34,589 nucleotides of DNA from Akkermansiaceae bacterium. Its GTDB lineage: Bacteria; Verrucomicrobiota; Verrucomicrobiia; Verrucomicrobiales; Akkermansiaceae. Made by a program: the position numbers and the translations under genes. Location of the stretch: the NCBI GenBank assembly GCA_903908495.1, contig CAIVSK010000056.1:1-34589 (forward strand), in the 5' to 3' direction. Positions within the stretch are counted from its first letter, which is position 1. Each line of letters starts with the position of its first letter. The notes under the pieces are model-generated. The model was not told where the DNA came from, made no database searches, and was given only the letters and a program-made list of their open reading frames with translations. This document shows positions 4,831 through 28,701 of this stretch, piece after piece.

Positions 4831-4898
4831 TAGCGCTTGTCGCAGGCGGTTCGTTCTTCCGCGCTTGACGCAAGGTCCCATCTTTCGGCAGCTGGGGA

Positions 4899-4928
4899 TT
4901 GACAAATGCGGGCCCTGGTCCTCAAAAT
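4899..4928 (+). promoter_or_regulatory. Sigma-70-like promoter candidate for the giant CotH/LTD gene
   Basis: A perfect TTGACA (4899-4904) is followed after 18 bases by CAAAAT (4923-4928), which matches four of six positions of the -10 consensus. It lies in the 145-base gap before the ATG at 4976 and gives a plausible 5' leader of about 40 bases. The -10 element is weak. Confidence 0.4.
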
Positions 4929-4975
4929 TCCTGTACCCAAATCCGGCGCCCGCCGGTCTTTGGTTTACACCCCCA

Positions 4976-7900
4976 ATGAAGCTTAGACTCCTCGTCACTT
5001 GCCTCGTGTTTCTGGTCTCCGTCGCAATCTCCGCGGCACAATCCATCACCATCAGCGAATTCGCCGCTTCTAACCAGAGTGGGTTGAAGGATGAAGACGG
5101 CGATGTTGGAGATTGGATCGAGATTTTCAACTCCGACGCCGTGAGCGTGAACCTGTCCGGGTGGCGCCTGACGGATGACTCGGGTGATTTGAGCAAGTGG
5201 GTTTTTCCCGCCGTGACCCTCGATCCCAAGGGGTTCATGGTCGTTTTCGCGTCGTCAAAAAACCGCGTCAACCCGATCCAACCGTTGCACACCAACTTCA
5301 AGCTGAGTGCAGGCGGTGGTTACCTTGGGCTGGTCAGGCCCGATGGCTCGGTGGCCTCCGAGTTCAATCCCTATCCGGCGCAATACATCGATAAGTCGTT
5401 CGGCTATCTGCAGAGCGTCTCGACCACCACCCTGATCGCGCCCGGTGCCGCACTGAAATGGCTCGTGCCCACCAGTTCCGTGCCCAGCGATGCAACCTGG
5501 AGCTCGCGGGCTTTCGGCGACAGCGGTTGGACCAGCGGCTACAACGGCGTCGGTTTCCAGATGCTCGTGAATGGCTGGGCGTTGAAGACCTACTTTGCCA
5601 ACCAGACCATTCCGTCACTCACCCAGGCGGAAGCGGTCATCAGCACGCCCTCGCTGCAATCCAGCATGGTGCCCGCCAATCACCCCGTGGTTAACTTCAA
5701 CGACAGTAGCTCAGCGGGCAATTACGGCGCGGAAAACCCGCCGCCGGCGCTTGCCGGCGGCAATCATGACCATTTTGTCGTCGAGGCCATCGGCACCATC
5801 AGTGTGACCGCGGCGATGGCCGGGGTTTGGTCGTTTTGTGTCACCAGCGACGACGGTTGCTCACTGCAAATCCGGCCCAAGGGCACAACGACATATACGA
5901 CGGTTCTGAGTTATGCCGGCTTGCGCGGAATGAGTGATTCGGTCGGAAAATACACCCTCAGCACCGGGCAATACGAACTCCGCGCTGTCATTTTCGAAAA
6001 CGAAGGCGGCGCCGGCGGCGAGGTCAGCGCGTTCAAGGGGACCAACACCGCCTGGAGCACCGGCTTCAAATTGATCGGCGATACCGCCAATGGCGGGCTC
6101 GCCGTGAAGTCGGTCTCGGTCGGTGCCAGCGACTACAACGCATATGTCGGTGCCAATGCCAGCACACAGGCCGCGATGTACGACGCTGCCCCGCAGCGTT
6201 CTTCGTGCTACATCCGCCTTCCATTCACCAATCCGGGCGGGCTTGCCTCGCTCACGATGCCGATCCGCTATGATGACGGGTTCGTCGCCTATCTCAATGG
6301 CGTCGAAGTCGCGCGCCGCAACGCCCCCGCCGGATCCGTCACGGATGCCACGACGGCCACCGGCGACCGGCTCCCGATCCAAGCACTTACCCCGGAAAAC
6401 ATCGATCTCACCGCTAGATTAGGCCTGCTTGTCGCAGGATCCGGCAATGTGCTCGCGATTCACGGCTTGAATGAATCCGCCGCCAGCCCGGATTTCCTCG
6501 TCAGGGCTGAACTCAACCAATTCACAGTGAGCGTCAGCCCTACGGCGACCTATTTCACCACTGCCACACCGGGCAGCATGAATACCGCTGCTGTCTATAA
6601 CAAGCTCGCCCCGGTCACCATCACCGGTGCCGCGAGGGGCTTTTATAAAGCGCCCCAGGTGGTGGCTCTCGCCACCGGCACCGCCGCCGCCACCATCCGC
6701 TACACTCTGGACGGTTCTTCACCTTGCCAACTCGATGTGGAGGGAAACGTCCTGCGCGATGGCGGCAATAACGCCATCCCGTCGCCAACCAGCGGCGTCT
6801 ATGCCGCGCCGTTGACCATCAGCACGACCACCGTGCTGCGTTACGCCGCATTCAAGAGCGGCTCCGACCCGAGCGATTCGGTCACCCAAACCTATATCTT
6901 CACCGCCGACGTGAAAAACCAGTCGCTCACCGGCGCGGCCCCCGTGATCACCAATCCACCGGGCGCATCCCCGGCTCTAACCACCTGGCCGTCCACTGCC
7001 GCCAGCGGTCAGGTGCTGAACTATGGCATGGATCCAAACGTCGTTGGCGTCGCTCCCTACAACGCTACCATCGAGAACGACCTCAAGGCAATCCCCAGTT
7101 TTTCCATCGTCACGGACAACAGTTCGCTCTTCGACGCCGCCACCGGCATGTACGTCAATCCCGGCGACGACAGCATCGCATGGGAGCGGGCGGGTTCACT
7201 CGAGTTGATCTATCCGGATGGTTCGAGCGGCTTCCAGGCCAACTGCGGTCTCCGCATGCGCGGGGGATTCAGCCGCTCCACCGACAATCCCAAGCACGCG
7301 TTCCGCATCTTCTTCCGCGACCAATACGGGCCCGGCAAACTGAAGTTCCCGTTTTTCGGCAACGATGCCACGGCGGCGACCGAGTTCAGCAAATTTGACA
7401 TCCGCTGTTCCCAGAACTACTCGTGGTCGTTCCAAGGCGACGCCGGCAACGGCTTGTATTTCCGCGACGAATTCAACCGCCAGTCGCAGCTCGACATGGG
7501 CCAGTTGAGCAGCCACACCGCGTTCTTTCATCTCTATGTCAACGGCCAGTACTGGGGCCTCTTCAATATAGACGAACGGCCGGAGGCAAATTTCGCAGCT
7601 TCCTATCTCGGCGGCTCTTCGAGTGACTATGACACGATCAAGGTCGCGCCGGACAATGGCTACACGATCTACGCAACGGATGGCGACATGGCCGCCTGGA
7701 CCAGCCTTTGGCAGCAGGCCGACAGCGGGTTGGCCGCAGGCAACTCCGAAACCACCAATAACCCTGTCTACCAGAAGATTGTCGGCAACAACCCCAACGG
7801 CACCCCCAATCCCGCCTATCCGGTGCTGGTGGATCCGGCGAACATGATCGATTACTGCATCATGGTCTACTGGGGCGGCAACCTCGACGCCGCTATCTCG

Positions 7901-10900
7901 AATTTCCTCGGCAACAATGAGCCTAACAACTGGTTCGGGTTCCGTGACCACACCGGGGCGCACGGCGGCTTCCGATTCGTGCTTCACGACTCCGAGCACA
8001 CCCTGCTCAATGTCAATGAGGACCGCACCGGCCCGTGGGCGGCCGGAAGTACCGCGGCGCAGGGGAGTTCGGCCCTTTCGTATTCGAGTCCCCAGTATAT
8101 CTTCCAGCAATGCATCTACGCACAGGAGTTCAAGATGCTCTTTGCCGACCGCGTTTTCAAACACTTCAACTACGCCGGTGCACTGACGCCCGTGGGCGCG
8201 ACGACCCGCTTTGACAAGCTCAAGGCGCAAATTGACCGGGCGATTGTTGGCGAGTCCGCGCGTTGGGGCGATGCCAAAGTCGAGCCGCCCATCAACCGCG
8301 ACACGAACTGGGTCACCTGCGTCAACAGTGTCCGCAGCAGTTTTCTGCCGTCGCGCACTTCGGTGGTGCTCCAACAGTTCCGCAACAAGGGCTGGTATCC
8401 AGCCATCGACCCGCCGCTGTGGGGCGTGCGCGGCGGCACTGTGGTTGCCGGTTCCGCGACCACGCTTGCGCTCGTCTCTGGACAAAGCGGCACCATCTAC
8501 TACACGACGGACGGCAGCGATCCGCGGCAATACAACTCCAGCACCGGACTGGGGGATGTCCGCAGCACCGCGCTCGTGTACTCCGGACCGCTCACCATCG
8601 ATGCATCCAAGCTGATCCGCACGCGGGTGAAAAGCGGCAACACGTGGAGCGCGATCGACGAGGCGGCCTTTTACACGACGCAGAATTTCACCGGCCTGGC
8701 CATTACCGAGATCAACTACAACCCGCTGCCTAACGGGCTGACATCGGGTGACGAGTTCGAGTTTCTGGAACTCAAGAACACGACTGCCAATCCGATGGAT
8801 CTGGGTGGGCTGAACTTCACCGCCGGGATTACTTATACATTTCCTAGCGGCACGATCCTCGCGCCGGGTGCCTTCTATGTGCTGGCGCGCAACGCCACGC
8901 AATTCCACAGCCGTTACCCGTCCCTGACGCCCAACGGCATCTACACCGGCAAGCTCGATAATGGCGGCGAAACACTCACGATCTCCGGCCCGAGCGGCGG
9001 CACCATTCTATCCGTGGATTATTCTGACAATCCGCCCTGGCCGGCGGCGGCGGATGGCAACGGTTACTCGCTCGTCCCCATTACCACGATTTACAATTCG
9101 CAAGACGGGCACCACTGGCGTGCCAGCGCGAACACCGGCGGGTCCCCCGGTGCCGATGATCCTGCGGTGAGTATCCCGGGCATTCTGATCAATGAAGCAT
9201 TAACCAACTCGGCCAGCGGGCTGACCGACGCCATCGAACTCTTCAACCCGACTCCTACCGCGGTGAATATCGGCGAGTGGTGGCTGAGTGACGATCGGAA
9301 CACGCCGAAGAAGTTCCGCATTCCGGCCGGGACGATGATCGCCGCGGGTGGCTTCGTTTCATTCAATGAGACGCAATTCAATGCCACTCCCGGCGTGGCC
9401 CCTGCTTTCGCGCTGAGCTCAACCGGCGATGACGTCTATCTGTTTTCCGGCAGCGCGGGTGGCGGCCTGACCGGCTACAGCCACGGATTCAGCTTTGGGG
9501 CGGCCGAGCAGAACGTGACGTTCGGACGCTACGTCAACAGTGTGGGTGAAGAGCAGTTCCCCCGGCAAACCGATGCCACGTTCGACGCCCCCAACAGCGG
9601 CCCGCGGGTGGGTCCGCTGGTGATCAACGAAGTCATGTATTTCCCCTATCCGGGATTCGATAGATATGTCGAAATCAAGAACGTCAGCGATATGGCCGTG
9701 AATTTGTACGACCCCGCGAATCCGGCGAACACGTGGAAAATCAGCGGCCTCGGTTACGTTTTTCCAACGGGACGGTCAATTCCGGCCGGGGCCCTCGCAC
9801 TGGTCGTGCCAATTGATCCGGCAACCTTCCGCTCGAAGTACGGCGTGCCGGCGGCGGTGCAGATTTTCGGGCCTTGGCCCGGCACCCTGCAGGGTAACGG
9901 CGAGCGCCTGTCGCTGGAAATGCCGGATTTGCCCGTCATGCAGGCTGGCGTGAGCGTCGTGCCTTACGACGTCATCGATAGCGTCCGCTATAACGACAAA
10001 CTGCCGTGGCCGGTTGCGGCGGCGGGCGGCGGCCCGTCGCTCCAACGGATCGATTCCAGCGCGTACGCGGACGATCCTGCGAATTGGTTCGCCAGCGGCG
10101 CAAGCCCGGGACTCTCTAACATGGCCAATCAAACACCCTCGGTCGCGCTCACCGCCCCGGCAGGCGGCTTGACTTACGCAGTCCCGGCGACGGTCAATTT
10201 CGCGGCCACCGCAGGTGACGCCGACGGCTTGATCGTGAAAGTCGAATTCTTCGTCGATGGCGGAAAAGTCGGTGAAGCGACCAGTGCGCCCTATACATTT
10301 GCCTGGAGCGCAACCGGAGGCGTGCATGCCTGCACTGCGGTGGCCATTGACAACAGCCTCGGGGTGGCGAGCAGCGCGCCGCGTACCATCTATGTCACCA
10401 CTCCTGTGAGCCAGGGATTGAAAGGCCAGTATTTTGTGGGAGCGGAAAACTTCACCAGCGGCTTGGCCGGTGAGCGCATCGATCCGGGGGTCAATTTTTC
10501 CGTCAACGGGAACTGGCCGCTCAACGCCGGATTTCCGGGCATCGGCAATGAATACTATTCCGTGCGCTGGACGGGCCAGGTGTGCCCCCCGACCAGCGGC
10601 ACCTACACATTCTATATCAACTCCGATGACGGCTCATTCCTCTATCTGAATGACGTGCGGGTCATCGATGACGGCAGCTACCACGGTGACACTGAACTCA
10701 GCTACAGCACGGATCTAACGGCTGGGCAGTTGTCCAGGATCCGGATGGACATGTTCCAGGGCGGCGGCGGTGCCACCGCGCAGCTGTCATGGTCCGGCCC
10801 GGGTATTGCCAAGCAGATCATCCCGCAGAGCGCGCTCTATCCGGACAGTGCGCCGATCATCATCAGGCAACCCACAGGCCTGGCACGTGAGCAGGGGACC

Positions 10901-11491
10901 GGTGCCACGCTTGCTGCCTTTGCGTCCGGCCTCAACAATACCTATCAATGGCTCAAGAATGGCACCGTCATTGCTGGTGCCACGGGTGCCAGTTATACGA
11001 TCGGTCATGTGCTGGCGACGGATGCCGCGCAGTATTCCTGTATCGTGTCCAACGGCAGCGGTTTCGCCGCCACCAGCACCGTGACTCTCGCCGCGACTTT
11101 CACCGATAGTGATGGTGATGGCATGCAGGACTCGTGGGAAATCGCCCACGGCTTCAATCCCAACGAGCCCGCCGATGCGACGCTCGACAGCGACGGCGAC
11201 GGCATGACCAACCTGCAGGAATTCCTCGCCGGCACCGACCCCCGGGATTCCAACAGCAGGCTCACTGCCACTGCCACGCGCAACGGCCTGAACCAAGTGG
11301 TGATCCATTTCACCGCGCAGCCCTACGTCGCCTACACCCTGCAGTTCAAGAATGATCTCACCGACGCGGCTTGGACCAAGCTCGGCGATATTGACGCCGC
11401 AGACAGCTTGCGCAAGGTGGACATTGCCGACACCACAGGGTCCGCCGGCAGCAAGCGCTTCTACCGTGTCGTCACCCCCAGGGAACCGTAG
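4976..11491 (+). CDS. Giant secreted CotH-kinase / lamin-tail / PA14 multidomain protein
   Basis: 2171 residues. The ATG at 4976 opens a good signal peptide (to about residue 21, ISAAQ); the frame continues upstream but that part is not signal-like. Approximate domain order: LTD 1 (22-140); a jelly-roll-like segment (160-200); a PA14-like domain (220-370); a second carbohydrate-binding-like segment (405-505); chitobiase C-terminal-like domain (558-642); CotH domain (about 740-1090); second chitobiase-like domain (1150-1232); LTD 2-4 (about 1239-1358, 1400-1528, 1545-1692); bacterial Ig (1720-1807); PA14 (1812-1955); Ig (1959-2038); two thrombospondin-3-like DSDGDGM repeats (2042-2088); and a verrucomicrobial-style C-terminal beta domain. 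CotH proteins are secretory-pathway kinases. The block usually carrying WDxD reads HDSE here (D1005, E1007). No PEP-CTERM or other sorting signal is visible. Probable role: cell-surface or extracellular binding; function unproven. Confidence 0.9.
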   Translation: MKLRLLVTCLVFLVSVAISAAQSITISEFAASNQSGLKDEDGDVGDWIEIFNSDAVSVNLSGWRLTDDSGDLSKWVFPAVTLDPKGFMVVFASSKNRVNPIQPLHTNFKLSAGGGYLGLVRPDGSVASEFNPYPAQYIDKSFGYLQSVSTTTLIAPGAALKWLVPTSSVPSDATWSSRAFGDSGWTSGYNGVGFQMLVNGWALKTYFANQTIPSLTQAEAVISTPSLQSSMVPANHPVVNFNDSSSAGNYGAENPPPALAGGNHDHFVVEAIGTISVTAAMAGVWSFCVTSDDGCSLQIRPKGTTTYTTVLSYAGLRGMSDSVGKYTLSTGQYELRAVIFENEGGAGGEVSAFKGTNTAWSTGFKLIGDTANGGLAVKSVSVGASDYNAYVGANASTQAAMYDAAPQRSSCYIRLPFTNPGGLASLTMPIRYDDGFVAYLNGVEVARRNAPAGSVTDATTATGDRLPIQALTPENIDLTARLGLLVAGSGNVLAIHGLNESAASPDFLVRAELNQFTVSVSPTATYFTTATPGSMNTAAVYNKLAPVTITGAARGFYKAPQVVALATGTAAATIRYTLDGSSPCQLDVEGNVLRDGGNNAIPSPTSGVYAAPLTISTTTVLRYAAFKSGSDPSDSVTQTYIFTADVKNQSLTGAAPVITNPPGASPALTTWPSTAASGQVLNYGMDPNVVGVAPYNATIENDLKAIPSFSIVTDNSSLFDAATGMYVNPGDDSIAWERAGSLELIYPDGSSGFQANCGLRMRGGFSRSTDNPKHAFRIFFRDQYGPGKLKFPFFGNDATAATEFSKFDIRCSQNYSWSFQGDAGNGLYFRDEFNRQSQLDMGQLSSHTAFFHLYVNGQYWGLFNIDERPEANFAASYLGGSSSDYDTIKVAPDNGYTIYATDGDMAAWTSLWQQADSGLAAGNSETTNNPVYQKIVGNNPNGTPNPAYPVLVDPANMIDYCIMVYWGGNLDAAISNFLGNNEPNNWFGFRDHTGAHGGFRFVLHDSEHTLLNVNEDRTGPWAAGSTAAQGSSALSYSSPQYIFQQCIYAQEFKMLFADRVFKHFNYAGALTPVGATTRFDKLKAQIDRAIVGESARWGDAKVEPPINRDTNWVTCVNSVRSSFLPSRTSVVLQQFRNKGWYPAIDPPLWGVRGGTVVAGSATTLALVSGQSGTIYYTTDGSDPRQYNSSTGLGDVRSTALVYSGPLTIDASKLIRTRVKSGNTWSAIDEAAFYTTQNFTGLAITEINYNPLPNGLTSGDEFEFLELKNTTANPMDLGGLNFTAGITYTFPSGTILAPGAFYVLARNATQFHSRYPSLTPNGIYTGKLDNGGETLTISGPSGGTILSVDYSDNPPWPAAADGNGYSLVPITTIYNSQDGHHWRASANTGGSPGADDPAVSIPGILINEALTNSASGLTDAIELFNPTPTAVNIGEWWLSDDRNTPKKFRIPAGTMIAAGGFVSFNETQFNATPGVAPAFALSSTGDDVYLFSGSAGGGLTGYSHGFSFGAAEQNVTFGRYVNSVGEEQFPRQTDATFDAPNSGPRVGPLVINEVMYFPYPGFDRYVEIKNVSDMAVNLYDPANPANTWKISGLGYVFPTGRSIPAGALALVVPIDPATFRSKYGVPAAVQIFGPWPGTLQGNGERLSLEMPDLPVMQAGVSVVPYDVIDSVRYNDKLPWPVAAAGGGPSLQRIDSSAYADDPANWFASGASPGLSNMANQTPSVALTAPAGGLTYAVPATVNFAATAGDADGLIVKVEFFVDGGKVGEATSAPYTFAWSATGGVHACTAVAIDNSLGVASSAPRTIYVTTPVSQGLKGQYFVGAENFTSGLAGERIDPGVNFSVNGNWPLNAGFPGIGNEYYSVRWTGQVCPPTSGTYTFYINSDDGSFLYLNDVRVIDDGSYHGDTELSYSTDLTAGQLSRIRMDMFQGGGGATAQLSWSGPGIAKQIIPQSALYPDSAPIIIRQPTGLAREQGTGATLAAFASGLNNTYQWLKNGTVIAGATGASYTIGHVLATDAAQYSCIVSNGSGFAATSTVTLAATFTDSDGDGMQDSWEIAHGFNPNEPADATLDSDGDGMTNLQEFLAGTDPRDSNSRLTATATRNGLNQVVIHFTAQPYVAYTLQFKNDLTDAAWTKLGDIDAADSLRKVDIADTTGSAGSKRFYRVVTPREP

Positions 11492-18050: not shown

Positions 18051-18194
18051 CTAGCCAGGTGAAGCACCAGTCGCAACCGGTCCGCCACGGAGCGGTCGCA
18101 AGGAGCGCCTGAAGGTGGCCCGCGGTTTGCTATGGGATCGGGCGTGGCTTTGTCCGGAGGTCTCGCCTATATTTCCCACCGCTACCCATTTCCC

Positions 18195-21100
18195 ATGCAC
18201 AGCCACCCATCATCGGCCACTCCTTCGCGCGTCCCGCCGCATCTCATCGCCCACATCAACGTCAAACTCGCCCTCCTCGGCTGCCAACCGGTACCGCTGG
18301 CCGGCGACCGCGAGTTCGCTGAAATCGCCGCCGCAATGGCCGCCCAGTCGCGCGAAAAAGACCGCCTGCTCGGCCAACACCTGTGCCCCGCCGACCAGCG
18401 CATCCAAAATTTCCTCCACGACTACCTGCAGGAAATTCCCGCCCCCAAACTGCCGGCGCATACCTTCACGCTGGACCGCGCCGGGCTCGCCCGGGTGCTG
18501 TCGCTGCCGGTGGATCGCGATGATTTCGCCTCCGACATCATCAATTCCTACCGGGTCAAACAAGGGGTCCTGCACAACCCGAAAAGCGATCGGCGCACCA
18601 CCGCCGGGATTTTTCACATCACCGAAGGCGGCTTGCCGATCCCCGACGACAAGCTCGCCGTGCCGAAAATCACCTTCGCCAAGCTCCTCCAGCACGCGCT
18701 CGCTCCGCCCGGTGACTTGCTGCGTTTGCCGTTTACATCGACCCAGCCGCAGCCCGCGGAATGCTTTGTTTCGCTGCTCATCCGGCCGCTCGTGTGCCCG
18801 GAAGTTGCCGGTTTCACCGCCGCCAAGACGATGGAGATCCGCTTGTTCGTACCCGGCAATCTGGTGAGTAACCTCGATTTCGTCGAGGCCATTTTCGCCA
18901 ATGGCGGCGACCCGCTGCTGCCGCACAACGACGCGGCGCTCGACACCGAGCATTGGAGCGGCCACACCGGCTGCATCATCCTCGCCCCCCACCTCACCCG
19001 CGTGACCAAGCGTGCGGTCGGCCTGCCACACGTCACGCAGGCGAGCGAGCGGCAGCGCCGCGACGGCATGTGCTGGACCACCGGGGACGAATGTTACAAC
19101 GACGGCAACGCCTTCAAGCTCACCGTCCGCGACGAAACCGGCGTCATCGTCACCCTCATCGCCGACAACTATTTCGGCTACTGCAAAAAGGAGGTGAAGA
19201 CCCAGTTGAGCTATGCGGCGAATTTGTTCGGCCTCGTCGAGGAAGAACATGCCGGCGGCGCGCTCGTGTTCCAGAGCTTTGACCTGGGGGAGGAATTCAG
19301 CGGCGAGACCCACGTCCGGCAGCTGGGCCACCACTTCGAGGAAATGGTCGCACAGTTTGGCGAGCTCATGGACGTCCAGCCGGACGGCTACGCGCTGGAC
19401 AAGAAATTTCCGTCCATCGTGTACGTTCCGCACAACGCGTTCTTCGATTTGCACGCCCAGGAGGTATCGTGGAAAAATGCCACCGGTGCCCATCGCATCC
19501 GGCTGTCCCCGGCCAAAACCTACGTCCGCCCGTCCGGCTACAAGGTCCGCATGGAAAAGCCGCCCGGCCACGGCCGCCAGTGGCGCCTCGTCGGCACCGT
19601 CGCCGAGGGCACGTTTTGTCACAAACCGTGCACGGTTTCCGGCGGCGGCAAATCGGAGATTTCCAAGAGCATCACCGATGCCATCCTCACCGGCCCGGTC
19701 TTCGTCGCCGATCTGAAGGCGGATTTCGACCGCGTCGAGCAACTCATCAGCCGCGATTATGCCGGCCGCTTCGCCGACCCGGCCCGCGTCGATACCCGCG
19801 CCGTGCTCTCACCCGAGCGCTCGCTCGGCTCGGTCATCAAATTGCTCACCCCCGACGAGCAGGACTACACCGCGGCCTACGGTGACTGGCTCGCCAGCGT
19901 GCCGCAGCACGTCAAGGAGCTCGTTTTCGTCGTCAAACGCTACTACCAGCCGGAATGGGGCACCCACTGGCGCGAGCACTTCAGCGTCGACATCATCAAC
20001 GGCACCCCCGGCAACGAACTCAAATGCGACAACCGCAAACTCGTCACCACCTACCTGCGCGTCGGCTTCGAGGCGGATGGTGCCTGGCGCACCTTCGGGC
20101 TGCGCAAGGATTTTCATCCGGCCGTCAAGGTCCAGATGGAGGATGACATCACCGCTTCCACGGTGGTCCCGGCCGCGGCATTGCAGCATCTGCCCACGGG
20201 CACCGACCCCGGGCTATCGCTCAAGTTCGTGCAAAATTGTGAGCAGCGCCTGTTCCAGCGCCCCGACGATGCGATCCACCGCGGCTACGACAAACAGGCC
20301 GAAGAGGATTTCGTCCAACCCGATAATTTCTTCTCCAACTACGAGCCGCTCACCCCCGCCGACGCCCGCGACATGGTCGCAGACGCGCTCGGCTTCCACC
20401 AATTCACCCCGCCGATGCAGCAATTCGTACTCGCCGCCGCCGATGCCGCCGCGCCCGGATTCTTCGTCTGCAGCGCCAACCCGCGCCTCGTCGACGGCTC
20501 CCCGACGAAAAATCCGCGCTACCTCCAGCAACGGCCGGACCGGTTGCGCGCCGACGAGACGTATCTGGCGGAAATCGCCGCCCGCCTGCGCCGCCGCGTG
20601 CCGCTGGCACATCCGTTGCACACGCCTGTCACCGCGGTGCTGCCCGGACGCCGCAATAATCCGCCGGATGTGGGCGTGCGACCGCTCGCCTGCTACAATC
20701 CGATTCACTATTTTGAATTGCCGGAATTGTTCATGGAGGTGATTTGCAGCATGACCGGAAAATCCCCGTCCACCACCGGCGCGGGTTCCGAGGGCGCGCT
20801 GACCAAGGGCCCGTTCAACGCGCTGCCACCCATCATCGACCTCAACACCGCCCTCGTGTCGTTCATCCTCACCGGCCACCAAGCCTTCGTCACCGCCGCC
20901 GGTTACGTCGGACCGCAGTTGCGCGTGGACCACGACGTAAGCTTGATCGTGCCGGAAGTCTGGTGCCGCCTGTCCCCCCACGAACGCGACCCGCAGTTCC
21001 TCATCGCCAACCGGTTTCTGGAAAAATGCGCGGACTTCGACCACGACGGCCAGCGCGTGCTCGCCAGCCGCCTCGGCTGGCGCATCAACAGCCGCTTCGT

Positions 21101-21629
21101 CCATGCCTTCTTCGGCCGCGTCTTCAACCACCCGCAAGCCGTCTTCACCGAGGCCATGCTCAAACCCGAATTGCAGGACCCCACCATTTTCGCCGACGGC
21201 ATGGACAACATCGTCGCCACCCAAAAGCGCGTCGCCAAAATGTATGTCGACGACGGCAGCATCGCCCAGGCCTGTCCGCCGCTGCAGGCGCTGCTGCACA
21301 TCATGCTCGACGACGCCTGGGACGGCAAAGGCCTCGACCATCCCGAGTTTCGCGCCCTCTTCACCCGTCAGCACCTGCTGGCCAGCCCGTGGTACGCCGC
21401 CCGCCTCGCCGCCAAACAGCAGGTCGACCGCGCGCTGTGGGCCCGCCACGTCGCCTCCCTCACCCAGTTCCTGCGCCGCCCCAACTACGCCGACGTCGCC
21501 GACAGCCTCCACCTCGCCGAGCGCCTGCACGCCGCCCACGCCACCCTGGCTGCTCTCTCCGCGCCCGATTACGCCCGTCAGCTCGTCGGCACCCTCGGTG
21601 CCGAGCCCATTGCCAATTACCTCGGCTGA
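18195..21629 (+). CDS. Large cytosolic protein, probable PPi-type phosphoenolpyruvate carboxykinase
   Basis: 1144 residues, no signal peptide and no membrane segment. The ATG at 18195 (MHSHPSS) is preferred to 18132, whose extra 21 residues look non-coding. Two glycine-rich blocks stand out: CHKPCTVSGGGKSEISKS (about residues 475-492) and TGKSPSTTGAGSEGALTKGP (about 854-873), followed by DLNTALVSFILTG. The length and these blocks match my memory of the pyrophosphate-dependent PEPCK family first identified in Entamoeba and Propionibacterium (about 1100-1200 residues, unrelated to ATP/GTP PEPCK). That enzyme interconverts PEP + CO2 + Pi with oxaloacetate + PPi. The match is from memory and not aligned. 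The gene stands alone, between the hairpin cluster and tRNA-Ser. Coding call is firm, function moderate. Confidence 0.65.
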   Translation: MHSHPSSATPSRVPPHLIAHINVKLALLGCQPVPLAGDREFAEIAAAMAAQSREKDRLLGQHLCPADQRIQNFLHDYLQEIPAPKLPAHTFTLDRAGLARVLSLPVDRDDFASDIINSYRVKQGVLHNPKSDRRTTAGIFHITEGGLPIPDDKLAVPKITFAKLLQHALAPPGDLLRLPFTSTQPQPAECFVSLLIRPLVCPEVAGFTAAKTMEIRLFVPGNLVSNLDFVEAIFANGGDPLLPHNDAALDTEHWSGHTGCIILAPHLTRVTKRAVGLPHVTQASERQRRDGMCWTTGDECYNDGNAFKLTVRDETGVIVTLIADNYFGYCKKEVKTQLSYAANLFGLVEEEHAGGALVFQSFDLGEEFSGETHVRQLGHHFEEMVAQFGELMDVQPDGYALDKKFPSIVYVPHNAFFDLHAQEVSWKNATGAHRIRLSPAKTYVRPSGYKVRMEKPPGHGRQWRLVGTVAEGTFCHKPCTVSGGGKSEISKSITDAILTGPVFVADLKADFDRVEQLISRDYAGRFADPARVDTRAVLSPERSLGSVIKLLTPDEQDYTAAYGDWLASVPQHVKELVFVVKRYYQPEWGTHWREHFSVDIINGTPGNELKCDNRKLVTTYLRVGFEADGAWRTFGLRKDFHPAVKVQMEDDITASTVVPAAALQHLPTGTDPGLSLKFVQNCEQRLFQRPDDAIHRGYDKQAEEDFVQPDNFFSNYEPLTPADARDMVADALGFHQFTPPMQQFVLAAADAAAPGFFVCSANPRLVDGSPTKNPRYLQQRPDRLRADETYLAEIAARLRRRVPLAHPLHTPVTAVLPGRRNNPPDVGVRPLACYNPIHYFELPELFMEVICSMTGKSPSTTGAGSEGALTKGPFNALPPIIDLNTALVSFILTGHQAFVTAAGYVGPQLRVDHDVSLIVPEVWCRLSPHERDPQFLIANRFLEKCADFDHDGQRVLASRLGWRINSRFVHAFFGRVFNHPQAVFTEAMLKPELQDPTIFADGMDNIVATQKRVAKMYVDDGSIAQACPPLQALLHIMLDDAWDGKGLDHPEFRALFTRQHLLASPWYAARLAAKQQVDRALWARHVASLTQFLRRPNYADVADSLHLAERLHAAHATLAALSAPDYARQLVGTLGAEPIANYLG

Positions 21630-21719: not shown

Positions 21720-21806
21720 GGACAGGTGTCAGAGTGGTCTAATGAGCACGCTTGGAAAGCGTGTGTGGGTGTAAGCTCACCGAGGGTTCGAATCCCTCCC
21801 TGTCCG
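21720..21806 (+). tRNA. tRNA-Ser, anticodon GGA
   Basis: An 87-base type-II tRNA. The acceptor stem is GGACAGG with CCTGTCC. The anticodon stem CACGC/GCGTG encloses the loop TTGGAAA, giving anticodon GGA, which reads UCC and UCU. A long variable arm (stem GTGGG with CTCAC) is typical of tRNA-Ser. The T stem GAGGG/CCCTC surrounds TTCGAAT. The discriminator is G and CCA is not encoded. tRNA-Ser genes are common phage and island attachment sites, and an integrase-like fragment follows directly. Confidence 0.95.
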
Positions 21807-21926
21807 CTCTCGGGTTCGGAACAAGTTGCATTCGAATCATTATCAACGACTTGTGAAGAAAGCGAGGGGGCTGGAGTCCCGATTTCACACAAAATTCCAC
21901 ACAAGTTGACGCGAACGCCGGGGTCT

Positions 21927-22092: not shown

Positions 22093-25000
22093 CTATTTTT
22101 CCACCTGCAGCCGCATGAAACGTTGCGGAGAGTCGGCGATGAGCACGTCGTCCCTCACGGTTACCAACCAGTATGTGCCCATGTCAACCCGCCCGGCTTC
22201 CACCACTGCCGGGGACCACGAGCCGGCACTCATGTCGGCACTGGCCTCCACAAAGATAGTGATATCGGTGGCTTGTTTGTTCAAGCGGTAGGTCAGGGTT
22301 AGATAGCCGCCTTGCTGGTCGGCGGTGGGCAATCCGCCGGCATCCGGGGTCTTGGGATCGAGCGCCAGTGCGTACTCCATCAGGTTGACGATGCCATCCT
22401 GATCGGGGTCGGCACTGTCGCCACTGATTGCGGGATTGGCCAGCTCGGCCGTGCTGAAATGGGCCGCCTTCCAAATATCATAGGGCGGGGGATCCACTCC
22501 GGCAATTTTAATGATCGCCGATGTACCGGGGATGCCATTGACGAAAACCGTCACCAGTGCGTGGCCTTGGGGGAAACCCGCGGTGATCGAAGCGGAGGCG
22601 AACGCGCTGGCCGACCAACTGGTCGGTTGCAGCACGCTGGTCAGTCCGCTGTCCAGCATGCGCACCTGGACCACCGGCAGATCGCTCGCCGAATTCTGGG
22701 ACCCGTTGCCACCGGAGGCACTGGACAGCCCGCGGAATTGCGTGCCGGTTAGAGCCAGGGTGGTCCCTGGCACCAGCGAGGCCGGGGCGCTGGTGATGAC
22801 CGGTTGGGATGCCGCGGCGAAGCCGAGGCCGACGTCATAGGTTTCCCCGCTGCTCAATGCGCCGGCACTGCCGCTGCCGCCAAGCGCGAGCACCCGGCCG
22901 GTGGCCAGCAGGGTGGCGCTGTGCGAGCTGCGGGCCGTGCCAAGCACCCCGCTGTTTTGCCACATGCCGGTGGTCGGATCAAACAACTCAGCCGTGGCGG
23001 AAACCCCGCCGCCGGTGCTGCTGCCGCCGCTGATGAGCACCTTGCCGTTGGGCAGCAAGCAGGCGGTATGATAGGCGCGGGCAAGCCCGAGTGGAGTCGT
23101 GGTCGCCGTCCACGTCCCGCTCGCGGGATTATATAGCTGAGTGCTGTTGAGATAGGTGGTGCCATTGACGCCGCCGGCCACCAGCACCGAGCCGCCGGGC
23201 AGCAGCGTGATGGTTTGGCCTTTGCGGGCACCGGTCAAGCTTCCGGTGGCGCTCCACGCCCCGGTGGTGGGATTGTATAACTCGGCAGTGGCGAGTGTAC
23301 CGCCAGTCCCTTCACCGCCGGCAACCAGCACCTTGCCATTGGTTAGGATGGTCGCGGATTGGGCGTCGCGCGCTGCCAGCAATGAGCCGGTGGCCGTCCA
23401 CAGGCCGGTGAGGGGGTCATAGATTTCCGTGCTCGCCAGCGGGCCGCCGGTGTCCAAGCCGCCGGCGATGAGCACCCTGCCGTCGGCTAACAGGGTGGCG
23501 GTATGGAGAAAGCGAGCGCTGTTCATGGTGCCGGCAGGAACCCACAATCCGAGAGTGGGATTGTAAAGTTCCGCGCTGGCGAGGACTGTGCCATTCTGGC
23601 CGCCGGTGACCAGAACCCAGCCGCTTTTCAGCAGTGTGGCGGTGTGGTCGCGGCGGGTGACAAGCAGGGTGGCACCGGGCACCCATGTGGCGGTGGCCGG
23701 ATTGTGGATCTCGCTGCTGGCGAAGGTGTTGGTGCCGTCCCAGCCGCCGGCCGCGAGCAGGCGGCCATCCGGCAGCAAGGTGGCGGTGTGATGGGTGCGG
23801 GGGCTGCCCGCCGGGGCGGTGGCCGTCCAGCTGCCAAGCGCGCAATCATATAACTCCACACTCCCGAGGTTGGTGCCGCTGTATCCACCGGCCACCAGCA
23901 GTTTGCCATTGGCCAGCAGGGTGGCGGTGTGATCTTGGCGTTTGGCAATCAGAGAGCCGGTTACTGTTGCCCAGGCCCCGCTCGCCCCGCTCGCCGGATT
24001 GTAGACGTCCGCTTTGGCGATCGTGCTGGGCAGGCCTGAAACCAAACCGTAGCCGCCGGTAAGAATCACCCTGCCATTGGGAAGGAGGGTGGCGGTGTGA
24101 AGGTAGCGCGGGGTGGTCAGCGCGCCGGCCGCGCTCCAGATCTGGGTGGTGGGATCAAACAACTCGGCATTGGGGGAGGTGGTGGTGCCGGTCGAGCCAC
24201 CTGCAACGAGCACCTTCCCGTTAGGCAGCAACGTCACGGTGTGATAGTAGCGGGCTGTGGCGAGAGCTCCCGTTGTTAGCGTCCACGTCCCGGTGGCAGG
24301 ATCAAACACCTCGGAGGCAGCCAGAGGGGCGGACGAGCCGAAGGCGCCGGGGTATCCCATCCCGCCACACACCATGACCTTGCCACCCACCAAGAGAGTG
24401 GCGGCATGGTAGTAGCGGGTGTTCTTCATGGCCGCCGTCGCGGTCCAGGCATTGGTTGCCGGATCATACAACTCCGAACTTGATAGGAAGGCCGTGCCCT
24501 GGATTTGTCCGCCGGTCACCAGGACCTTGCCGTTGGCCAGTAACGTCGCGGTGTGATTGATGCGCGCCGTCGTCATGGTTCCGCCCGTGGTCCATTTTTC
24601 GGTGACCGGATCATACAACTCGGCGGAGGCAAAGGTGATGGGATTGCCACCGCCGGTGATCAAGACCTTGCCGTTGGCAAGCAGTGTGGCCGTATGGCTG
24701 AAACGGGCCGAGATCATTGAGCCGGTGGGAGTCCACACTCCCGTGGCAGGATCATATAACTCCGCGGTGTTGAGTGCCGCGCCGAGCATGCCGCCGGCCA
24801 CCAGGATTTTGCCATTGTTCAACAAGGTGGCGGATTGGTAGCGGCGGGTTCCGCTCATTGCCGTGGCATTGGTAAACGACGTCGCTGCACTCAGCAGCAA
24901 GGTGCCCGTGCCACTGCCGGTGTAGCTCGGATCTGTGATGGTCGCCAACACCGTGTAGCTGCCGATCGCTGTCGGCGGCGTGGTCGAGGTGGGGTAGACG

Positions 25001-27567
25001 GTCGTTCCGATCCCGGTGTAAGTAAGCGTCACCGCCAGCCCCGCCGGGGTTGTGGTGGCCGTCACGCTTTTCGTCGCCCCATCCACCGCTTGCGACAGGC
25101 CGCTGAGAACGACGCTGGCGGGCGCCTTCGCGATTTGCGTTAGAATGGCGTTAGGGATGCCATTGACGGTCACGGTGAGGATGGCGGTACCGGCTGGCAA
25201 GCCGACCAAGGGTGCGGTGGTGAACGCGGTATCCGTCCAGCCGGTGGTGGCGGGCATCACGCTGCGGCCGCTTTCAACGCTGAACAATTGCACGCTGGGG
25301 AAGTTGGCGGGTGCGTCTTGGGTGGTGCCCGACGCGCCGCTGGAGATGCCGCGGAAGCGCGCGCCGGTGAGCGCCAATCCGCTGCCTAACATCACGCTGG
25401 ACGCCGGTGGATTGATCTGCGGCTGCCACCCGCTTTGATAGCCGCGCCCGCTGTCAAACAACTCGGCGCTCGGTTGATAGACCGTGCCGTTCACCCCGCC
25501 CGCGATGAACACCCGGCCATTCGTCAGCAAGGTGGCCGTGGGGCTTTTGCGCAAATTTCCCAGCGTGGCTGAGGCCGTCCAGCCCGCCGTGGCCGGATCA
25601 TACACCTCGGTGGTGGCCAGCGCAGCGCTGCCATTGCTTCCTCCTGCTACCAGCACCCTGCCGGTGGGCAGCAGCGTGGCGGCATGGGCGCTGCGGCCAT
25701 CGGCGAGCGCGCCGACGGGAGTCCACAGCCCGCTGGCCGGATCATACAACTCGCAGCTTGCTAGATAGTTGGTTCCCGCCAAGCCGCCGGCCACCAGCAC
25801 CTTGCCATTGGGCAGGAGGGTGGCGCTGTGCCCGCTGCGGCCGGTGGTGAGCGATGCGGTGGCAGCCCACAGGCCGGTGCCGGGGTCAAACAACTCCGCG
25901 CTGGTAAGGGCGGCACCTGCCGCGGTGCGGCCGCCGACCACCAGCACCTTGCCGGTGGCCAGAAGGGTGGCGCTGTGGGCCATCCGCGCGGTGGCCAGGG
26001 CACCGGTGCCCGTCCAGGTGCCGCTGGACGGGTTGTAGATTTCGGCGGCGGCGATGGCGGCGGCGGCGGTTTGGCCGGCCGCGACGAGGATCTTGCCATC
26101 GGGCAGGACCGTGGCGGTGTGGAGTTCGCGGGTACCCGCCATGGCTGCGGTGCTGGTCCATGCTCCTGTACCCGGGTCGTACATTTCCGCAGTCGCGAGG
26201 GTGGCGGCTCCGCTGTTGCCGCCAGCCACCAGCACCTTGCCGGTTTGGAGCTGGCTGAGGCTGTGCAAGTAACGCGCGGCGGACATCGGGCTGCCAGCCG
26301 TGGCGGTGCCGGCGGCTGGATCGTAAAGATTGACGGAGGCGAGAGCCGCGCCGTTGAAGCCGCCCGCCACCAGCACCTTGCCATTGGCCAGCAGGGCTGC
26401 AGCGTGTTGTGCGCGAGGCAGCGTGAGGGGGCCGGTTGCGACGGTGAAGGCGGTGTTCGTGTCTAAAACCTCCGTGGTGGCCAGCGAGATGGCGCTGGTG
26501 TCGTTCCAGCCGCCCGTGATCACGAGCTTGCCGCTGGGCAGGAGGGTGGTGGTGTGGGTCAGCCGGGCGCTCGCTAGTGCGCCGAGCGGCGTCCAGGTGG
26601 CGCTGAGGTAATCAAATTGCTCGGCACTGGCGATTGTGCCGCTGGTGCTGCTAAACCCACCGGTGACCAGCAGCTCGCCATTGGGCAAGAGGTTGGCGCT
26701 GTGCGAAAAGCGGCCGGTGGTAGGGGCTGCCGTGGCCGTCCAGGTTTCCGTGCCCGGATCAAACAACTGCGCGCTAACCAGCGCCGTGGCGTCATCGGTT
26801 TTGCCGCCAACCACCAGCACCGTGCCATCGGGCAGCAGGCTGGCGGTATGGTAGAAGGCGGGCGCGGCGAGCGTGCCGGCACCGCTCCATGTGCCGGTGG
26901 CCGGGTCGAAAATCTCCGCGCGGGCGGTGCCGACGTCAGGCTCGCTTTCCCCACCAACGACGAGCACTTTGCCGTTGGCCAGCAAGGTGGCGGTGTGGTC
27001 AAAGCTGGCTGTGGCCAGGGACCCGGTGGTTGTCCAGACGCCGCTGGCCGGGTCAAAAATCTCCGCGCTGGGGGTGACGCCGTTGTCGGTGAAGCCGCCG
27101 GCGACGAGCACCTTGCCGTCGGCCAGCAAGGTGGCGGTGAACGAGTCGCGGCCCGTGGTCATGGCACCGGTGGCCGTCCAGGTGGCGCTGACCGGGTCAA
27201 ACAGGGCGGCGCTGGCGAGGGATGCCGAGCCGGCGAAGCCGCCGGCCACCAGCACCTTGCCATTGAGCAGCGCGGTGGACGTGTGCCAATAGCGGGCTGC
27301 GCTGAGCGGTGCCGCCGCCGTCCATTTCTGGGTGGCAGGATCAAACATCTCGGTGCTGGCCAGCGCGGTGTTGGCCGTATTGCGGCCCCCGCTTACCAAC
27401 ACCTTGCCGGTGGCCAGCAGGGTCATGGTGTGGGAATCCCGGCCGGTGGCCAGCGGTCCGGCGGTGCCCCAGGTCACAGCTTCCAAGGGTTGCAGGCCGA
27501 CAAGGCTGCATGCAAGGGCCGGCCAAGCCATGGACCAACGACGAAAAAACTGGGAGAATTTGCTCAT
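22093..27567 (-). CDS. Giant secreted Kelch-repeat protein (28 repeats)
   Basis: 1824 residues from the ATG at 27567, which opens a signal peptide (to about residue 30); the upstream extension is not signal-like. I count 28 Kelch-like repeats of about 49 residues, each with R-x-x-HTATLL-x-x-GKVLVAGG, then an ASAELYDP and a G-x-W-x-x-x-G element. They form two blocks of 14 (about residues 35-709 and 902-1584), which suits two seven-bladed propellers per block. Each block is followed by a related domain containing LALTGxxFRG and ending in VNGIP. After the first of these is an MBG-like immunoglobulin-type segment. The C-terminus has a DPDQDG calcium-type motif (about 1703) and a beta domain. Likely extracellular or surface binding. 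The gene is divergent from rph; the stop is TAG. Confidence 0.92.
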   Translation of the reverse strand: MSKFSQFFRRWSMAWPALACSLVGLQPLEAVTWGTAGPLATGRDSHTMTLLATGKVLVSGGRNTANTALASTEMFDPATQKWTAAAPLSAARYWHTSTALLNGKVLVAGGFAGSASLASAALFDPVSATWTATGAMTTGRDSFTATLLADGKVLVAGGFTDNGVTPSAEIFDPASGVWTTTGSLATASFDHTATLLANGKVLVVGGESEPDVGTARAEIFDPATGTWSGAGTLAAPAFYHTASLLPDGTVLVVGGKTDDATALVSAQLFDPGTETWTATAAPTTGRFSHSANLLPNGELLVTGGFSSTSGTIASAEQFDYLSATWTPLGALASARLTHTTTLLPSGKLVITGGWNDTSAISLATTEVLDTNTAFTVATGPLTLPRAQHAAALLANGKVLVAGGFNGAALASVNLYDPAAGTATAGSPMSAARYLHSLSQLQTGKVLVAGGNSGAATLATAEMYDPGTGAWTSTAAMAGTRELHTATVLPDGKILVAAGQTAAAAIAAAEIYNPSSGTWTGTGALATARMAHSATLLATGKVLVVGGRTAAGAALTSAELFDPGTGLWAATASLTTGRSGHSATLLPNGKVLVAGGLAGTNYLASCELYDPASGLWTPVGALADGRSAHAATLLPTGRVLVAGGSNGSAALATTEVYDPATAGWTASATLGNLRKSPTATLLTNGRVFIAGGVNGTVYQPSAELFDSGRGYQSGWQPQINPPASSVMLGSGLALTGARFRGISSGASGTTQDAPANFPSVQLFSVESGRSVMPATTGWTDTAFTTAPLVGLPAGTAILTVTVNGIPNAILTQIAKAPASVVLSGLSQAVDGATKSVTATTTPAGLAVTLTYTGIGTTVYPTSTTPPTAIGSYTVLATITDPSYTGSGTGTLLLSAATSFTNATAMSGTRRYQSATLLNNGKILVAGGMLGAALNTAELYDPATGVWTPTGSMISARFSHTATLLANGKVLITGGGNPITFASAELYDPVTEKWTTGGTMTTARINHTATLLANGKVLVTGGQIQGTAFLSSSELYDPATNAWTATAAMKNTRYYHAATLLVGGKVMVCGGMGYPGAFGSSAPLAASEVFDPATGTWTLTTGALATARYYHTVTLLPNGKVLVAGGSTGTTTSPNAELFDPTTQIWSAAGALTTPRYLHTATLLPNGRVILTGGYGLVSGLPSTIAKADVYNPASGASGAWATVTGSLIAKRQDHTATLLANGKLLVAGGYSGTNLGSVELYDCALGSWTATAPAGSPRTHHTATLLPDGRLLAAGGWDGTNTFASSEIHNPATATWVPGATLLVTRRDHTATLLKSGWVLVTGGQNGTVLASAELYNPTLGLWVPAGTMNSARFLHTATLLADGRVLIAGGLDTGGPLASTEIYDPLTGLWTATGSLLAARDAQSATILTNGKVLVAGGEGTGGTLATAELYNPTTGAWSATGSLTGARKGQTITLLPGGSVLVAGGVNGTTYLNSTQLYNPASGTWTATTTPLGLARAYHTACLLPNGKVLISGGSSTGGGVSATAELFDPTTGMWQNSGVLGTARSSHSATLLATGRVLALGGSGSAGALSSGETYDVGLGFAAASQPVITSAPASLVPGTTLALTGTQFRGLSSASGGNGSQNSASDLPVVQVRMLDSGLTSVLQPTSWSASAFASASITAGFPQGHALVTVFVNGIPGTSAIIKIAGVDPPPYDIWKAAHFSTAELANPAISGDSADPDQDGIVNLMEYALALDPKTPDAGGLPTADQQGGYLTLTYRLNKQATDITIFVEASADMSAGSWSPAVVEAGRVDMGTYWLVTVRDDVLIADSPQRFMRLQVEK
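22805..24864 (-). repeat. Kelch repeat block 2 (14 units of about 147 bases)
   Basis: Fourteen consecutive units inside the Kelch gene, visible in DNA as recurring ACCAGCACCTTGCC-like strings on the plus strand. Units 4 and 6 of this block are longer than the others because of loop insertions. Confidence 0.85.
25435..27462 (-). repeat. Kelch repeat block 1 (14 units of about 147 bases)
   Basis: Fourteen units of similar length to block 2, followed like block 2 by a domain with the LALTGxxFRG motif. The same order and count suggest a duplication of a whole 14-repeat module. Confidence 0.85.
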
Positions 27568-27743
27568 GATAGGAGGGGGATGGTTGAATACCCGTAGCGG
27601 ATCCATTTTTAGGGTTGCGCACCCGATTTTCCAGCTTCTTTTCACATTTCCACCGTGATCCGGGATTTTCCCAAACGCGCATGCCCCGCAGGGTTTGATT
27701 GATCCGCGCTTGCACTGCACGCGGCGGTGGAATTCACTCCGCC

Positions 27744-28523
27744 ATGACTCGCCCCGACGGACGCCAAGCCGACCAACTCCGCAATATCTCCTTCATCCCC
27801 AATGTGGCCGCCCATGCCACCGGCTCGGTGCTGGTGTCCTTTGGCAATACCCGCGTGATTTGCTCGGCCACGGTGGAGGACGACGTGCCGCGCTGGATGC
27901 GGGCCCAACGGGTGGAAGGCGGCTGGCTCACTGCCGAGTATTCGATGCTGCCTTATTCGACCCTCGACCGCAAACCCCGCGATATCTCGCGCGGCAAACT
28001 CGATGGCCGCTCATCCGAGATCCAGCGCCTGATCGGTCGCGCGTTGCGCGCCGTCATCGACCTCAAAAAACTCGGCCAGCGCACGCTCTGGATCGACTGT
28101 GACGTCCTCCAAGCCGATGGCGGCACCCGCACCGCCTCCATCACCGGTGGCTGCGTGGCGGTGGCCATCGCCTTCAACCGCCTGTTCGCCGCAGGCAAAA
28201 TCCGCGATTTCCCCTTGAAAAAGCTCGTCGCTGCGGTGTCCGCCGGGGTGGTGGACGGCGTGCCACTGCTGGATTTGAACTACCCTGAGGACAAGGCCGC
28301 CGCGGTCGATTTCAACGTGGTGATGACGGAAGCCGCCGAGTTCGTGGAAGTCCAGGGCAGCGGTGAGGAATCGGTGTTCTCCGCCGCTGAAATGACGGCC
28401 ATGCTGGACTTGTCCCGCAATGGCATTGCCCAACTCATCACTCTGCAAAAGCAGGCCATCCTCGCCGCCGACCGCGCCGGTCCAGCCGACCTCGCCGGCC
28501 TCGCCGCCGCCTTCGGCCAGTAA
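27744..28523 (+). CDS. rph: Ribonuclease PH
   Basis: 259 residues from the ATG at 27744 (MTRPDGRQ), where the family's R-x-DGR opening sits; an ATG at 27699 would add 15 residues. Conserved segments are in order: GNTRVICSATVED (about residues 34-46), GWLTAEYSMLPYST (about 59-72), the SEIQRLIGRALRAV block (about 91-104), and DCDVLQADGGTRTASITGG (about 118-136), which includes the phosphate-binding Arg of GTRT. RNase PH is a phosphorolytic 3'-5' exonuclease that trims tRNA precursors and acts as a hexamer in the cytosol. It is divergent from the Kelch gene, sharing a 176-base gap. The rdgB partner often seen beside it is absent. Confidence 0.95.
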   Translation: MTRPDGRQADQLRNISFIPNVAAHATGSVLVSFGNTRVICSATVEDDVPRWMRAQRVEGGWLTAEYSMLPYSTLDRKPRDISRGKLDGRSSEIQRLIGRALRAVIDLKKLGQRTLWIDCDVLQADGGTRTASITGGCVAVAIAFNRLFAAGKIRDFPLKKLVAAVSAGVVDGVPLLDLNYPEDKAAAVDFNVVMTEAAEFVEVQGSGEESVFSAAEMTAMLDLSRNGIAQLITLQKQAILAADRAGPADLAGLAAAFGQ

Positions 28524-28525
28524 CG

Positions 28526-28701
28526 CCCGGAGCGGGGGGGCGGGGCACTGTACCCCCGTCCATGCCAAGCGCAGGAGCCAGCCGCCAAGGACAGGGGCGA
28601 TCTCCGAATCGCCCGAGACCATGAAGGGGGCAATGGAAAGCAGTCAGCCACCACGCATTGGCTCCCCATGGGCCACGGCGGATTTGAGTCCCGGAGCGGG
28701 G
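28526..28701. repeat. Direct repeat CCCGGAGCGGGG in the rph-uxs gap
   Basis: The 12-mer CCCGGAGCGGGG occurs at 28526-28537 and 28690-28701. Each copy is followed within a few bases by a CACTG-GTACC-like string. The second copy also lies in a GTCCC/GGGAC hairpin (28688-28703). No gene is supported in this 279-base gap (28524-28802). Confidence 0.4.
28595..28614 (+). terminator. Hairpin GGGCGAT-CTCCGA-ATCGCCC downstream of rph
   Basis: A perfect 7-bp stem with a 6-base loop lies 72 bases after the rph stop, in the convergent gap before uxs. It lacks a U-run, so termination is possible but unproven. Confidence 0.4.

Follow-up and report, generated by a model that had tools for sequence, protein, structure and literature searches.

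A large Kelch protein of an Akkermansiaceae bacterium with two modules of fourteen repeats, each ending in a galactose-oxidase-like E-set domain

A contig of 34,589 nucleotides from an Akkermansiaceae bacterium, hereafter called the window, carries on its minus strand a gene (22093-27567) with Kelch repeats in two blocks. Two questions arise from this arrangement: how does such a chain fold, and are its two halves copies of each other? A first-pass annotation, made from the letters of the DNA, had proposed 14 + 14 repeats that close into four seven-bladed propellers and had ascribed them to the duplication of a whole module. The features discussed here are the following, with their basis in brackets.

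22093..27567, minus strand: whole gene, 1,824 aa (ORF, repeat segmentation, start kept in 6/6 orthologues)
27478..27567, minus strand: likely N-terminal signal peptide, aa 1-30 (judged by eye)
26422..27447, minus strand: block 1 repeats 1-7, aa 41-382, putative first seven-bladed propeller (repeat coordinates, model; closure inferred)
25426..26421, minus strand: block 1 repeats 8-14, aa 383-714, predicted second propeller, galactose-oxidase type (repeats, model superposition)
25153..25449, minus strand: E1, galactose-oxidase-like E-set, aa 707-805 (E1/E2 homology, model superposition)
24880..25119, minus strand: MBG_3 linker domain, aa 817-896 (Pfam)
23806..24852, minus strand: block 2 repeats 1-7, aa 906-1254, putative third propeller (repeat coordinates, model)
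22807..23805, minus strand: block 2 repeats 8-14, aa 1255-1587, predicted fourth propeller, galactose-oxidase type (repeats, model superposition)
22525..22839, minus strand: E2, second E-set, aa 1577-1681 (E1/E2 homology, model superposition)
22096..22506, minus strand: C-terminal domain of 137 aa; D-x-D-x-D-G-like loop, last residues RFMRLQVEK (recurrence within the own genome)

The gene is intact and reads from an ATG at 27567 to a stop codon at 22093-22095. Starting instead from a GTG at 27720 would lengthen the ORF; the position of the ATG is conserved in all six orthologues inspected, and two of the six have an in-frame stop within 30 codons upstream. The stretch immediately 5′ of the ATG (27568-27660) is similar among several orthologues, yet its frames differ (e.g. 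K-R-S-W-K-I versus a frame-shifted form), so that the site may hold a conserved element, either untranslated or a promoter.

Segmentation of the product gave exactly 28 repeats of 44-56 aa, as had been counted in the first-pass annotation, with block 1 at aa 41-714 and block 2 at aa 906-1587. Several repeats score above the Pfam gathering threshold, and the total is far above chance (Kelch_4: E 4.6e-157, 510.4 bits, cut-off 21.6; Kelch_1: E 5.8e-156, 505.7 bits, cut-off 20.1). A Pfam match to RAMA was discounted, as it sits within the Kelch repeats. The domains behind the two blocks, recognised earlier by a shared LALTGxxFRG motif and the ending VNGIP, are indeed homologous (38% identity across 101 aa, two-sequence BLASTP E 1e-16); neither E1 nor E2 has a match of its own in the Pfam scan. 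The linker between the blocks is likewise present and contains an MBG_3 domain (PF18887; 70.4 bits, cut-off 25, E 1.4e-19). The computed order of the protein is therefore 14 Kelch repeats, the E-set-like E1, MBG, 14 Kelch repeats, the E-set-like E2 and a C-terminal domain of about 137 aa, the last being absent from the earlier description.

In a search of 195 related genomes, 23 matched at E<=1e-30, own genome included. In seven genomes of the same genus the gene lies nearly full-length on one contig, with 55-67% identity, and in an eighth (G026) it is split across two contigs. The plan of fourteen repeats, E-set, fourteen repeats, E-set (14-E-14-E) is found in 7/7 complete orthologues; in one of the orthologues (G038) the one-piece match stops at residue 1703 and the frame continues 494 residues past the second E-set. 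Going by isolate names, we read the Akkermansiaceae relatives as freshwater organisms. In a named collection, 97 stretches were found to encode relatives, and the best 80 of these were used and gave 77 loci. Further relatives carry a single 14-E module, one array of 7, gapped arrays of 7, or 21 or 28 repeats, and single 14-E modules occur in the same order and phylum as well as in other families and phyla. Judged by these sequence comparisons, fourteen repeats together with the E-set are an inherited unit. The own genome encodes a second Kelch protein (L003, on G000:C57) with 14 repeats of a different subfamily (RYNPTTNTWT type). No description of a bacterial module of 14 Kelch repeats plus E-set was found in the literature searched, most subscription journals lying outside it. 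A Kelch-like protein is mentioned for a giant cable bacterium, which in the part of the publication available has no bearing on the ring or duplication question (PMC10580974).

The proposed duplication came with the expectation that repeat n of block 1 pairs with repeat n of block 2. A comparison within the one sequence shows no such pairing: the mean identity at the same position is 0.450 versus 0.441 after permutation (p 0.20, aa), and the p values are 0.60 at the nucleotide level and 0.81 for the third codon position. Clustering by neighbour, named in the annotation as the opposing outcome, was not found either, adjacent repeats (lag 1) showing no excess similarity on the single sequence. 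The comparison of repeat i with repeat i+7 was equally negative in block 1, block 2 and the single modules (p 0.26, 0.30 and 0.15). With profiles from eight orthologous sequences, from which the common Kelch profile had been removed, a weak in-register signal emerged (z 2.98, p 0.003). It is the best of 14 shifts and is carried by repeats 11, 12 and 14; leaving out repeat 14 raises p to 0.018, and leaving out repeat 12 as well raises it to 0.077. The control of this test, the window protein versus one orthologue (L019), gave z 13.5 with the own position best in 21/28 repeats, the alignment itself being in register. Register tests on the module alignment resulted in z 3.26 for block 1 versus block 2, 4.03 for block 1 versus single modules, 4.88 for block 2 versus single modules and 2.46 for single modules among themselves (0.75 without repeat 14); these values lean positive, since the alignment was made in register, and we rely on the orthologue-profile test instead.

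For the origin of the two halves, the chances are about even that two already separate 14-E paralogues were joined in an ancestor of the genus. The existence of single 14-E modules in the order, the phylum and beyond is consistent with such a fusion, and so are the identities: block 1 and block 2 of one gene share 45.7% on average (8 genes, 42.9-49.3%), no more than the 46.6% found among 14 single modules, one of which (L021) is followed by another array of seven. The single modules are 40.0-48.7% identical to block 1 and 41.6-50.6% to block 2, and five of the fourteen are closer than 45.7% to block 1, eight to block 2. In the module trees block 1 (9 rows) and block 2 (8 rows) each form one clade, with support of 100/100 and 100/99 in the careful tree, so the split between the blocks predates the split of the orthologues. 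The two clades are unjoined in the careful tree, where 0% of 200 bootstrap trees part both blocks from the single modules by one branch. However, the deep branches of this tree are without support (59/81), the placement of the blocks relative to the single modules differs between trees, and a clade of both blocks survives the AU test (p 0.32), being neither shown nor rejected. In a tree of the E-sets each block is again one clade, and the deep forks are not settled.

A tandem duplication within the gene, in which one ancestral 14-E module gave rise to a second copy before the orthologues split and MBG came to lie between the copies, has in our judgement slightly less than an even chance. It agrees with the identical module order and register of the two halves, with the positional signal in the orthologue profiles and with the outcome of the AU test, and one tree, built without three long rows, places block 1 and block 2 together with a support of just 26. 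Against it stand the within-gene identity, which is not above that among single modules, the single modules that are nearer to either block, the bootstrap trees and the missing pairing on the single sequence. Thus the 14-E module named in the annotation does exist as a unit, occurring singly elsewhere, whereas the 46% identity of the halves and the AU test do not establish its view of them as mutual copies.

The fold of both blocks was predicted with AlphaFold2, giving a mean pLDDT of 91.0 and a pTM of 0.86 for block 1 with E1 (21-row alignment) and of 90.6 and 0.90 for block 2 with E2 (18-row alignment). For both models, ranks 1-25 of VIA-align 2 are galactose oxidases and AA5 relatives, and ranks 1-24 of both lists have Z 34.7-41.4 and rmsd 2.3-2.8 with 396-433 residues aligned. 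The top row is 9g43_A in each case, with Z 41.4 for block 1 and Z 37.6 for block 2 (rmsd 2.5, 414 aligned, model residues 356-801). For block 1, repeats 8-14 and the E-set match the galactose-oxidase propeller and E-set across 396-422 residues in ranks 1-24; an example is 1gof, of which residues 155-639 superpose on model residues 341-786 (Z 39.1, rmsd 2.7, 414 aligned). In the predicted structures, repeats 8-14 of both blocks therefore form a seven-bladed Kelch propeller followed by a galactose-oxidase-like E-set. No row aligned to repeats 1-7 of block 1; by subtraction and by the number of repeats, we infer that the N-terminal strand and repeats 1-7 would make up the other seven-bladed ring. 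The aligned part starts towards the end of repeat 7, so that the ring of repeats 8-14 appears to borrow its first strand there, and repeat 14, the last of each block, is without a W-strand. For block 2, most galactose oxidase rows start at model residues 1-5, and as the mean pLDDT of these residues is 48, a strand exchange at the start of this module is uncertain. A fold search of block 2 against viral structures yielded mainly Kelch-like and unnamed proteins among the matches listed.

The prediction of two seven-bladed propellers per half, and hence four per protein, is well supported by the models of repeats 8-14 and by the arrays of related proteins, which come in sevens; for repeats 1-7 the closed ring is putative. 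To this extent the propeller proposal of the annotation holds.

Repeat numbers in relatives, a comparison that the annotation had suggested, were counted in a census of 160 loci, limited to ORFs of at least 250 aa and arrays of at least 3 hits; identical ORFs were removed, and 9 arrays running into the end of a contig or locus were excluded. The initial count, based on a narrow Kelch model, yielded arrays of 5 (1), 6 (2), 7 (75), 12 (1), 13 (1), 14 (34), 15 (5), 18 (1), 21 (4) and 28 (1). Individual inspection of the hits of 15 ORFs after this count revealed false hits within E-sets, split hits and repeats that had been missed. A second model was then made from 996 repeats; looser counting added arrays of 8, and final hits had to span the core strand. 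The 128 complete arrays then comprised 5 (1), 6 (2), 7 (74), 8 (2), 14 (43), 18 (1), 21 (4) and 28 (1) repeats. In both arrays of 8 (L083 and L093) the eighth hit, with 3.3 and 2.8 bits, precedes the array and was set aside, and in L154 a gap of 78 residues was taken as one undetected repeat. With L083 and L093 taken as 7, 124 of the 128 arrays have 7, 14, 21 or 28 repeats, in a sample that is biased because its loci were found by likeness to the window protein and in which arrays from the same protein or from orthologues do not count as independent. Excluding the window gene and its orthologues, 107/111 arrays are multiples of seven. The arrays come from 12 named phyla plus other relatives, and 10 phyla show multiples of seven only. 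Myxococcota have one array of 6 and one of 18 alongside 16 fitting arrays, Elusimicrobiota one of 5 and one fitting, and the fourth exception, with 6 repeats, is from the same order as the window organism (exceptions: L034, 6; L061, 18; L092, 6; L116, 5). Two separate arrays of seven are carried by 5 proteins. In the Myxococcota loci L051-L054 and L058, 21 repeats, or 28 in Corallococcus praedator (L058), stand in one run, and an E-set was not detected. Since related arrays nearly always number 7, 14, 21 or 28, what is conserved seems to be the complete ring.

A different partition of the fourteen repeats, e.g. 6+8 or a single large ring, is very improbable: the blade numbers of highly repetitive propellers form a continuum and an array of 15 blades was predicted as 7+8, as far as the available part of that study goes (PMC9218822), but the match of block 1 to galactose oxidase, the near-absence of arrays outside the multiples of seven and the proteins with two separated arrays of seven argue against it. 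According to the same partial text, the 14 blades of WRAP give two propellers of seven blades each, and the histogram of WD40 blade numbers peaks at 7 and 14 (PMC9218822). WRAP and other highly repetitive propellers have near-alike blades and occur in intermediate numbers, in the portions of the sources at hand (PMC9218822, PMC6805158), whereas the repeats of the window protein, with a mean identity of 44% at the aa and 57% at the nt level, lack the highly similar blades of recently amplified propellers, and intermediates are rare. The present arrays show almost nothing of the blade-number continuum as described in the accessible part of PMC9218822.

The galactose oxidases and related AA5 radical copper oxidases (1gof, 9g43, GlxA 4unm) likewise consist of a seven-bladed Kelch propeller and a following E-set; the window protein adds seven preceding repeats and has the whole arrangement twice. 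Galactose oxidase requires a Cys-Tyr cofactor and His ligands, one His being in the E-set. Across the eight orthologous sequences neither E1 nor E2 contains an invariant His, and repeats 8-14 lack an invariant Cys in both blocks; activity as a copper oxidase is therefore unlikely. That the protein is a radical copper oxidase of the galactose oxidase or GlxA type with additional propellers is hardly credible, for although the models match the AA5 fold and the GlxA equivalog NF052501 is hit with 273.7 bits (cut-off 800), the conservation of the orthologues speaks against both the ligand and the cofactor. Going by this conservation, the enzyme-like module seems to have lost its chemistry. Among 15 scanned E-sets one, from Chloroflexota (L057), matches the galactose-oxidase-like E-set model PF09118 (E 2.8e-4, 21.6 bits, below the cut-off of 25, profile 1-99/100); E1 and E2 of the window protein do not. 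A search of the E-set alignment against PDB sequences gave no match (best E 0.52), and other PDB sequence searches listed only Keap1, KLHL and designed Kelch chains among the matches. The Kelch domains of Keap1 and KLHL proteins are of the repeat type of the window protein, but their alignment is limited to about 280 residues, corresponding roughly to repeats 8-13, and no BTB domain is among the Pfam matches of the window protein.

The C-terminal domain (about 135-137 aa) has a conserved W, a D-x-D-x-D-G-like loop and an end like R-F-x-R-L-x-V, and with the window copy included, 89 places of the own genome match it at E<=1e-3. Of 30 loci inspected, one has no stop inside the locus and two are the same place; at 28 distinct places, including that of the window, the protein ends within 14 residues of the point that corresponds to the domain end in the window protein. 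A profile of 17 copies found matches in 113/118 related genomes (E<=1e-5, with scoring limited to 35 candidates per genome). All Pfam and NCBIfam matches of ten copies fell below the cut-off; they were weak ones such as TSP3_bac and Amuc_1099. The domain ends many large proteins and is a candidate sorting or anchoring domain. The most first-look candidates for it among the genomes listed (594) were obtained in G054, a genome of the same genus with 12.6 Mb and 6% contamination. Bacterial MBG-domain proteins share the MBG_3 domain, and MBG-like stretches adjoin this type of C-terminal domain at several other sites in the own genome; the window protein differs in using a single MBG as spacer between Kelch modules. 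At the N-terminus, most orthologue rows have a basic start, a hydrophobic stretch and an A-Q-A-like end, which by eye is likely a signal peptide. The protein is apparently exported.

Upstream of the Kelch gene and divergent from it lies the gene of ribonuclease PH (rph, 27744-28523, plus strand). It adjoins the orthologue in three loci (L042, L044, L048) and was not found within the 5-kb flanks in three others (L043, L046, L047), so that the neighbourhood gives no function. An ORF at 28011-28622 (minus strand) was rejected as a conserved neighbour, as it is antisense to ribonuclease PH. Elsewhere in the window, an ORF of 1,165 aa (18132-21629, plus strand) without Pfam match at E<=0.001 lies near a tRNA-Ser(GGA) gene (21720-21807), and 4802-11491 (plus strand) encodes a protein of 2,229 aa with lamin-tail, CotH kinase, PA14, Ig-like and TSP3 parts.

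We consider it fairly probable that the gene product is an exported, probably surface-displayed and non-catalytic binding scaffold that consists of two modules of one kind. In each module one seven-bladed Kelch propeller would lead straight into another, which bears a galactose-oxidase-type E-set. The second ring would borrow its first strand from the last repeat of the first ring, with the block ending in the repeat that lacks the W-strand, and repeats would be held in sevens because every ring has to close. The Ig-like MBG spacer would link both modules, the C-terminal domain common to dozens of proteins of this genome would close the chain, and the four rings may present several faces for protein or glycan ligands.

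The fold and the repeat type are already known; the arrangement of these known parts is new, and the feature is real and well conserved. Unusual are the near-strict sevens among divergent repeats across 12 named phyla and the double-propeller galactose oxidase architecture, predicted twice within one protein. It is an evenly balanced proposition that we deal with a widespread bacterial family of non-catalytic galactose oxidase cousins, in which propeller, propeller and E-set form a fixed block, arrays change by whole rings (7, 14, 21, 28) and not by blades, and the need to close the ring strictly filters the number of repeats, in contrast to the continuum of highly repetitive propellers. If the sevens hold in an unbiased sample, these proteins would provide a clean natural set for comparing propeller evolution by single blades and by whole rings, and if the proposed role is true, the gene would point to a large candidate binding protein in a group known without cultivation.
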